The position numbers and the translations under genes are program-made. This document shows positions 62,277-64,000 of a DNA stretch of 64,000 bases, piece by piece (position 1 is the stretch's first letter; each line of letters starts with the position of its first letter). This DNA is from Oceaniradius stylonematis (GTDB lineage: Bacteria; Pseudomonadota; Alphaproteobacteria; Rhizobiales; Rhizobiaceae): assembly GCF_003149475.2 (NCBI RefSeq), contig NZ_QFWV02000004.1, positions 107,633-171,632 of the forward strand, read 5' to 3'. The notes under the pieces are model-generated. The model saw nothing but the letters and a program-made list of their open reading frames with translations. It was not told the origin of the DNA and ran no database searches.

Positions 62277-64000
62277 TCAGTCGAGCATCGCTTCAAGCGT
62301 TTCGAGCCGGTCGGCCTCGAAGGGCGGCTTGTCCCATCTGAGGCGCGAGATGCGCGGAAAACGCATGGCGACGCCGGATTTGTGGCGTGTCGAGCGGTTC
62401 AACCCCTCGAATGCGACTTCCAGCACCAGCCCGTGATCGGGCTCGGCGCGCACCGACCGCACCGGGCCGAAACGCTCAACCGTGTTGTCGCGCACGAACT
62501 TGTCGATCTGTTTGAGTTCCTCGTCGGTGAAGCCGAAATAGGCCTTGCCGACCGGCACGAGCGCGGGGTCGTCGGCTTCGCCGGTCCAGACGCCGAACGT
62601 ATAGTCGGAATAAAAGCTCGACCGCTTGCCGTGGCCGCGCTGCGCATACATCAGCACCGCATCGATCAGGAAAGGATCGCGCTTGAACTTGAACCATGGC
62701 CCCTTGGGCCGGCCAGGGACGTAGATGCTGTCCCGGCGCTTGAGCATCAATCCCTCGATGATCGGGGCCGGCGGCGCGTTGCGCTTTGCCGCGACCTCCT
62801 CCCAGATCTTGAACGGCACGAGCGGCGACAGGTCGAACCGGTCGGCCGGCAACGTCGCGACAAAGGCTTCAAGCCGGGCGCGGCGGGTCTCGAACGGCAG
62901 CGGCCGCAAATCGTCCCCGCCCTCCTGCAGGAGATCGTAAGCGCGCACGAAGGCCGGGAATTTCGCCTGCTGTTTGGCCGAGACGGTCTTTCGGTTGAGG
63001 CGCTGCTGGAGATCGCCGAACGTGCCGGGGCGGATCGCGCCATCCTCGAAATGGCCGACCAGCAGTTCGCCGTCGATCGAGCCTTCGAAATCCATCGCGG
63101 CAAGAAGATCGGGAAAAGAGCGGGAAATGTCGTCGCCGGTGCGCGAATAGATGCGCGCGACGCCCTTTTCGGCGGTCGCCTGCACGCGGATGCCGTCCCA
63201 TTTCCATTCGGCGCAATAGTCGGCCGGATCGTAGCGGGCGAGGTCTTCGGTATCGGCCGGGTTGGCCAACATGACGGGCCGGAACGGCGCGGCGGCGGCG
63301 CTTTCGGGCTTGGGTCCGGTGCCGTCGAGCCATGCGAACAGGTTCGTATAGGGGATGGCGAGCCCGTGCCAGAGTTCCTCGATCTCGGTGACGTCCTTAC
63401 CGCCGAAATCGGCCAGCGCCTGCTTGACCAGCCTCGACGAAACGCCGATGCGCATGCCGCCGGTGATCAGCTTCAACAGCGCGTAACGGCCGGGCGGATC
63501 GAGCGCGTCGAGCCAGCGCTCGACCAGCCGCGGCCCGTCCGAGCGGGAGGAGATTTGGAGGGTTTCGACGATGGTGGCGAGGGGGAGGTCCGCATTCTTC
63601 ACCTCCCCCTTGAGGGGAGGTCGGTGAGGATCGCGCAAGTGAGCCGAACCGGGTGGGGGTTCTTCACCATCGCTTACCCCCACCCCGACGCTGCGCATCG
63701 ACCCTCCCCTCAAGGGGGAGGGTGACGGGCGCTCTTCCTCAGCCGGCCAGATCAGGGACACCGTCTCGGCCAGGTCGCCGACGAAATCGTAGGAATAGCC
63801 GAACAGGACCGGATCGACCCGCGCCTCGACCAGCGCGCGGATCATCGCCGGCTTGACCGAGGGAATGTCGAGATCGCGGGTGATGGCGGCGATCGCATAG
63901 CCGCGATCGGGATCGGGGGTCGCGGCTATGTAATCGACGATCAGCCGGAGCTTGGCGTTGCGCGATGGCGTGAGAACAAGGGCGTCGAGGAGGGCGGCGA
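62277..64000 (-). CDS. ATP-dependent DNA ligase, DNA-damage-associated type (5' end outside window)
   Basis: At least 573 residues visible; the start codon is a few bases beyond the window because the first visible codons (AALLDALVLTPSRNAKLRL) match the family N-terminus. The catalytic lysine is in EWKWDGIRV (motif KxDG), and the adenylation-site and OB-fold segments DGELLVG, SRTGDDISRSF, EGLMLKRRDS and GPWFKFKRD follow in the usual order. The family (TIGR04120-like, linked to cisplatin resistance) normally sits with an exonuclease and a DEXH helicase, which would be to the right. Visible residues about 88-130, just after SLIWP, are a frame-preserving insertion encoded by the palindromic repeat at 63598-63724; family length without it is about 530. 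Confidence 0.94.
   Translation of the reverse strand, partial: AALLDALVLTPSRNAKLRLIVDYIAATPDPDRGYAIAAITRDLDIPSVKPAMIRALVEARVDPVLFGYSYDFVGDLAETVSLIWPAEEERPSPSPLRGGSMRSVGVGVSDGEEPPPGSAHLRDPHRPPLKGEVKNADLPLATIVETLQISSRSDGPRLVERWLDALDPPGRYALLKLITGGMRIGVSSRLVKQALADFGGKDVTEIEELWHGLAIPYTNLFAWLDGTGPKPESAAAAPFRPVMLANPADTEDLARYDPADYCAEWKWDGIRVQATAEKGVARIYSRTGDDISRSFPDLLAAMDFEGSIDGELLVGHFEDGAIRPGTFGDLQQRLNRKTVSAKQQAKFPAFVRAYDLLQEGGDDLRPLPFETRRARLEAFVATLPADRFDLSPLVPFKIWEEVAAKRNAPPAPIIEGLMLKRRDSIYVPGRPKGPWFKFKRDPFLIDAVLMYAQRGHGKRSSFYSDYTFGVWTGEADDPALVPVGKAYFGFTDEELKQIDKFVRDNTVERFGPVRSVRAEPDHGLVLEVAFEGLNRSTRHKSGVAMRFPRISRLRWDKPPFEADRLETLEAMLD
63598..63724. repeat. 127-bp palindromic repeat element inside the DNA ligase gene
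   Basis: The ends are 23-bp inverted repeats: TTCACCTCCCCCTTGAGGGG (63598-63617, then AGG) and the reverse complement of 63702-63724, differing at two positions. Each end is itself palindromic around CCCCTTGAGGGG. Between them is a smaller GGTGGGGGTT / CCCCCACC inverted pair. It resembles the palindromic mosaic elements found in rhizobial genomes. The ligase frame runs through it without a stop. Confidence 0.85.

Follow-up and report, generated by a model that had tools for sequence, protein, structure and literature searches.

The window analysed here, a stretch of 64,000 nucleotides from Oceaniradius stylonematis, ends within a gene for an ATP-dependent DNA ligase. The minus-strand open frame of this gene (62277-63998) scored 802.7 bits with TIGR04120 over the whole length, against an equivalog cut-off of 400 (E 1.8e-241). 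It runs without a stop through a palindromic element located between the ligase WP motif and the helix starting LPLATIV. The frame and the TIGR04120 match thereby confirmed the first-pass annotation in placing the element inside the ligase frame; the earlier estimate of about 42 added residues also agrees with our figure of about 43. The features of the locus are as follows:

62277..63998, minus strand: ATP-dependent DNA ligase, cisplatin-damage-response type (open frame and TIGR04120), truncated by the right end of the window
63598..63724, no strand: palindromic element of the alpha family, ~127 bp, in frame in the ligase (sequence, genome repeats, fold)
63602..63620, plus strand: outer arm CCTCCCCCTTGAGGGGAGG, a near-palindrome by itself (sequence)
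63703..63721, plus strand: outer arm CCTCCCCTCAAGGGGGAGG, exact reverse complement of the arm at 63602-63620 (sequence)
63648..63686, no strand: inner inverted repeat CCGGGTGGGGGT ... ACCCCCACCCC flanking the hairpin loop, approximate limits (sequence, fold, conserved in 35 alpha copies)
63600..63722, minus strand: coding part for the low-confidence insert SPSPLRGGSMRSVGVGVSDGEEPPPGSAHLRDPHRPPLKGEV, residues about 93-133 of the window protein (frame, structure model)

The 127-bp element lies where it had first been placed, at 63598-63724. Its perfect terminal inverted repeat is 19 bp long (63602-63620 / 63703-63721); the arms extend to the 23 bp originally assigned to them only if a bulge of one base is allowed (TCACC-TCCCC vs TCACCCTCCCC). 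The calculated fold of the element strand had an energy of -44.2 kcal/mol, compared with -25.8 kcal/mol in shuffled sequences (z = -6.0). Since each arm is near-palindromic and an inner inverted repeat surrounds the loop, the element consists of two inverted half-units, and alpha thus has the REPIN-type layout of two inverted REP-like units, a spacer and a long hairpin. Among the consensus hairpin pairs, 2 of 27 covary, a low number that is explained by arms that scarcely vary. A known RNA family was rejected as the identity of the element, as the best Rfam match reached 24.4 bits, below the gathering threshold of 94.

An AlphaFold2 model of the ligase, built on a 40-sequence alignment, had a mean pLDDT of 86 and matched archaeal and human DNA ligases. 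Residues 93-133 formed the sole long segment with pLDDT below 50, located between helices 76-83 and 140-149. The insert had been placed just after the first domain boundary; according to the model it most likely forms a disordered loop between these helices, within the helical N-terminal region. The proposal that a repeat element supplies coding sequence was supported; the open frame indicates that the insert is probably translated, and SVGVGVSDGEEPPPGSAHLR is an example of a predicted tryptic peptide from it.

We then compared 107 ligase loci, taken from the family as well as from named genomes within the order and outside it, with Brucella, Aminobacter and Mesorhizobium among the nearest named relatives. 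In 99 of the 107 orthologues the linker between ..WP and the next helix measured 24-39 nt (8-13 residues), as the first reading had stated for ligase homologues, compared with about 153 nt in the window. The remaining linkers were 72-81 nt long in three loci and 132-276 nt in five. By inspection, all five long linkers contained palindromic inserts: beta-like in genome G024 and in two Jiella, delta-like in G091, and a single hairpin in Prosthecomicrobium. Within the genus, an independently assembled sister species had the same ligase insert in the same place with 116 of 120 bases identical (97%). The presence of this insert in an independent assembly, with four differences, excludes the assembly error that had been named as a possible refutation, and the chance that the insert is an assembly or sequencing artefact is practically nil.

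The alpha family is dispersed throughout the genome of the window (G000), with 28 matches at about 20 places and a best non-self E value of 6e-15; these and the other copy counts are similarity-search matches rather than a full census. Based on open frames with coding-type base composition, four alpha copies in this genome are wholly intragenic and the other ~17 are intergenic. The search for further copies in genes that had been recommended thus identified three hosts besides the ligase: the PcrA/UvrD helicase, where the insert lies immediately ahead of NICCVGDDDQ, glycyl-tRNA synthetase beta (GlyS, TIGR00211) and cobaltochelatase CobN (TIGR02257). Four other species of the genus (G001-G004) added 12 intragenic alpha copies, including copies at two sites of a hydantoinase/oxoprolinase gene. 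All 16 intragenic copies, at eight sites, kept the frame, with a chance of ~1.5e-4 if each site is treated as a free one-in-three choice of length.

Intragenic alpha copies, at 120-135 nt, were shorter than intergenic ones, at 135-160 nt (Mann-Whitney p = 5e-5 by site; L001-L023, L191-L213), which may reflect either selection for short inserts or a subfamily. As a general rule the shortness of genic copies fails for beta, for which copies of ~160 nt are in frame in CobN. An adaptation of the element to coding was likewise rejected, with no clear sign of it in the number of open frames, which was 2.8 of 6 per genic copy, 2.5 per intergenic copy and 2.3 in shuffled sequence. The possibility that copies classed as intergenic split a single gene was also discarded, given that the same-strand gene pairs checked were not halves of one gene. 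At one place adjoining cobalamin genes (L003 in G000, L042 in G004), the inner part of alpha appeared to be inverted relative to its flanks between the two species, a product that, judging from the sequence, recombination between the inverted arms of alpha could give.

The ligase linker itself is filled differently across the genus. Alpha occupies it in two species, G000 and G004, while G003 has beta and G001 has delta. The G002 insert is a hybrid, with a left half of the epsilon family, a fifth type, and a delta-like right half. Beta and delta are multicopy in their own genomes (52 matches for beta in G003 and 56 for delta in G001, by similarity search), and the beta insert in the G003 ligase shares 91% and 88% identity with beta copies at other places in the genus. 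The alpha, beta and delta ligase inserts resemble one another no more than shuffled sequence does. An equally long but unrelated insert in orthologues had been given as grounds for refuting the initial interpretation, and three sister species literally carry one. Yet their inserts belong to other palindromic repeat families, so that the interpretation is extended rather than overturned. Outside the linker, a delta-like element was located directly upstream of the ligase just past the right end of the window (G000:C18:171647-171801, L001), and a beta element directly upstream of the ligase gene in G004 (G004:C12:51518-51643).

The same comparison bears on whether the inserts at one site might be a single insert diverged beyond recognition, a possibility that has been raised for Rickettsia RPE-4/6/7 (PMC3767692) and with which the C-run and G-run arms common to all families are in agreement. 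However, the alpha, beta and delta inserts closely resemble multicopy elements from other places in the genomes, but not the inserts at the same position in other species, and the ligase core is 82-90% identical among the species, far too similar for total divergence of an insert. For alpha, beta and delta in the ligase, these sequences contradict a common origin, which we regard as very improbable overall.

Other sites in the genus were occupied in a similarly varied manner. GlyS site 1 was empty in G000, G002 and G004, with alpha in G003 and gamma in G001; GlyS site 2 held alpha, beta or gamma depending on the species, and G002 had a short stretch there; and GlyS site 3 was empty in G000 and G002 and carried alpha in G001, G003 and G004. 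CobN site 1 carried beta in four species, with a further beta at the C-terminus in G004, while CobN site 2 was empty in G002 and G003, held alpha in G000 and G004, and held a gamma-like unit plus beta in G001. UvrD of G000 and G002 carried alpha. In G004 and G001 alpha was accompanied by a gamma-like unit, and the G001 alpha had decayed; the insert of G003 was a different one. UvrB had a beta or half-beta insert ahead of the GVTGSGKT motif in all five species. DNA repair genes (ligase, UvrD, UvrB) were prominent among the in-frame carriers genus-wide.

By our own classification, ~20 site-by-family events fell on 9 sites, with three of the genes included because they carry an element, compared with an average of 18.6 clusters, and never fewer than 14, under uniform placement (20,000 trials), in a test that takes targeting and tolerance together. 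A stronger reading is that these few linkers are true exchange sites, where unrelated families are repeatedly targeted to, or replace one another at, identical codons in genes for repair and translation, more than tolerance would produce and without a Y1 transposase, possibly through target structure or recombination between the C/G-rich arms. We consider this doubtful.

The age of the inserts was assessed against a tree made from parts of three genes, ((G001,G004),(G000,(G002,G003))), in which the first split had 100% support. Alpha in ligase, UvrD and CobN is common to both sides of this split at 92-97% identity, compared with 81-91% in the coding flanks of 300 bases. Set against their host genes between species, the alpha inserts were 96.7% identical in the ligase (host gene 82-87%, P 3e-5), 95.9% in CobN (81-87%) and 92-98% in UvrD (88-92%). 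Between G000 and G004 the alpha inserts differ by 3-6%, while fourfold sites in ligase and UvrD differ by 22-29%. Such low divergence would suggest either constraint on the inserts or recent exchange. In the intergenic region between ligA and recN (L006, L194, L196), non-element DNA beside an alpha copy showed no differences over 42 bases and was almost unchanged beyond them, and the genes adjoining this region are only 85-90% identical in the three species. As intergenic DNA beside one alpha copy is equally conserved, the low insert divergence is no proof of constraint, and sequence constraint was set aside as suggested by the low divergence but matched by this one control.

A selected role for the insert, for example as a DNA-level hairpin or a useful loop of the ligase, would draw on the same excess of similarity over the host genes, as well as on the recurrence of repair genes as targets both here and in Di Nocera et al. 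(PMC3733652). It is difficult to reconcile with the unrelated sequences at the same place in sister species, the absence of any insert in most of the order, the two of four ligase insert differences that alter an amino acid, and the equally conserved intergenic control. Hence, we judge a selected role improbable.

Taken together, these data very probably reflect a non-autonomous palindromic repeat that inserted in a tolerant linker of the ligase, where such linkers are refilled by different families. The element would be MITE-like or REP-dimer-like, and would have entered the ligase coding sequence at a flexible helix-to-helix linker. With its open frame and a linker tolerant of length, the insert would have survived and would be read as a disordered loop, presumably without a selected function. 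Several unrelated palindromic families (alpha, beta, gamma, delta and epsilon) would have spread in the genus, and purifying selection would purge their insertions everywhere but between genes and in a small number of tolerant linkers, so that the same linkers in ligase, GlyS, CobN and UvrD would be refilled repeatedly. This repeated occupation would probably involve some exchange of half-elements, as in the G002 hybrid and the apparent L003/L042 inversion. An enzyme acting in trans would have provided mobility. RAYT mobilisation was rejected, as the Y1 transposase (PF01797; RAYT or IS200/IS605 type) was absent from G000-G004, while five control genomes scored. Duplicated target bases, for which inspection of the insertion boundary had been advised, were not visible at CobN site 2 or GlyS sites 1 and 3; the junctions there carry extra bases of unclear origin.

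In a rival scenario, one ancient linker insert was swapped for other families by recombination, without fresh insertion, either between similar C/G-rich arms or through gene transfer of the linker region. Alpha is present in the ligases of both G000 and G004, which the deepest split of the tree separates; under this tree it would be ancestral there, so that three lineages would have replaced it. In that case, recombination accounts for the swaps no less well than new insertions do. The epsilon/delta hybrid in G002 also points to exchange, and the apparent inversion of the inner alpha part between G000 and G004 is in line with it. However, the clean empty sites at GlyS 1, GlyS 3 and CobN 2, filled in other species, require some independent insertions, and the gamma-like units beside alpha or beta in UvrD and CobN of G001 represent additions rather than replacements. 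We regard exchange as the sole process as possible but rather unlikely. Different families at the same sites, together with the clean empty sites, favour recurrent insertion at a small number of permissive linkers rather than a single old insert that has diverged.

REPINs and BIMEs, which are moved by RAYT (Y1) transposases, resemble alpha in having two inverted REP-like half-units as a long hairpin in many dispersed copies. Unlike in REPIN/RAYT systems, a Y1_Tnp gene was found in none of the five genomes, which raises the question of what moves REP-dimer-like elements without a Y1 transposase. The Caulobacter CIR and Brucella Bru-RS elements are also ~100-bp palindromic repeats of Alphaproteobacteria, as described in PMC2229807 and PMC2267715, with CIR given as intergenic. 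In contrast to CIR, GANTC methylation sites were present in 0 of 35 alpha copies.

Rickettsia (PMC2229807, PMC3767692) and Wolbachia (PMC4224334) provide known examples of coding palindromes, where palindromes of 100-150 bp lie in frame in conserved and essential genes, some being intergenic, and the encoded peptides occupy solvent-exposed places. Alpha likewise occurs between genes and in frame in conserved genes, so that the kinship in spirit with Rickettsia palindromic elements (RPEs) claimed by the first-pass annotation is upheld as a likeness of architecture only. Members of different RPE groups occupy nearly the same position in some orthologues (Ogata et al. 2000, via PMC2229807 and PMC3767692); PMC3767692 leaves open whether different palindromes at one orthologous place represent hotspots or a single diverged insert. 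Unlike the RPE cases, the present host is outside the Rickettsiales, the same-site families are clearly unrelated and multicopy, and empty sites remain in the genus. The presence of unrelated multicopy alpha, beta and delta at filled and empty sites within one genus argues for repeated occupation, and the contribution here is a dense within-genus record of empty, filled and differently filled sites.

Intragenic coding palindromes as such are already known, often in repair genes. Di Nocera et al. 2013 described GTAG/CGTC REPs as intragenic units and dimers in many bacteria, with uvrA/uvrB, UvrD/Rep helicase, DNA ligase and tRNA synthetases as notable host genes; copies were often beside the 3' ends of convergent genes, and in one case different REPs lay at about the same recB site in Xanthomonas (PMC3733652). 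A GTAG or CGTC tag was present in the terminal 26 nt of 0 of 35 alpha copies, and alpha is therefore not a member of those REP families. The present elements are also longer (120-160 bp), and different families at the same site are frequent here. Relative to the open-access literature, what is new are the families, the clade outside the Rickettsiales, the absence of Y1 in five genomes, and how strongly different families recur at the same sites. The genus thus offers a natural map of permissive insertion points in ligase, PcrA/UvrD, UvrB, GlyS beta and CobN. The target classes agree strikingly with those of the GTAG/CGTC REPs (PMC3733652), and provide comparative material on the question why genes for repair and tRNA synthetases are hit repeatedly, as they are by these unrelated REPs.
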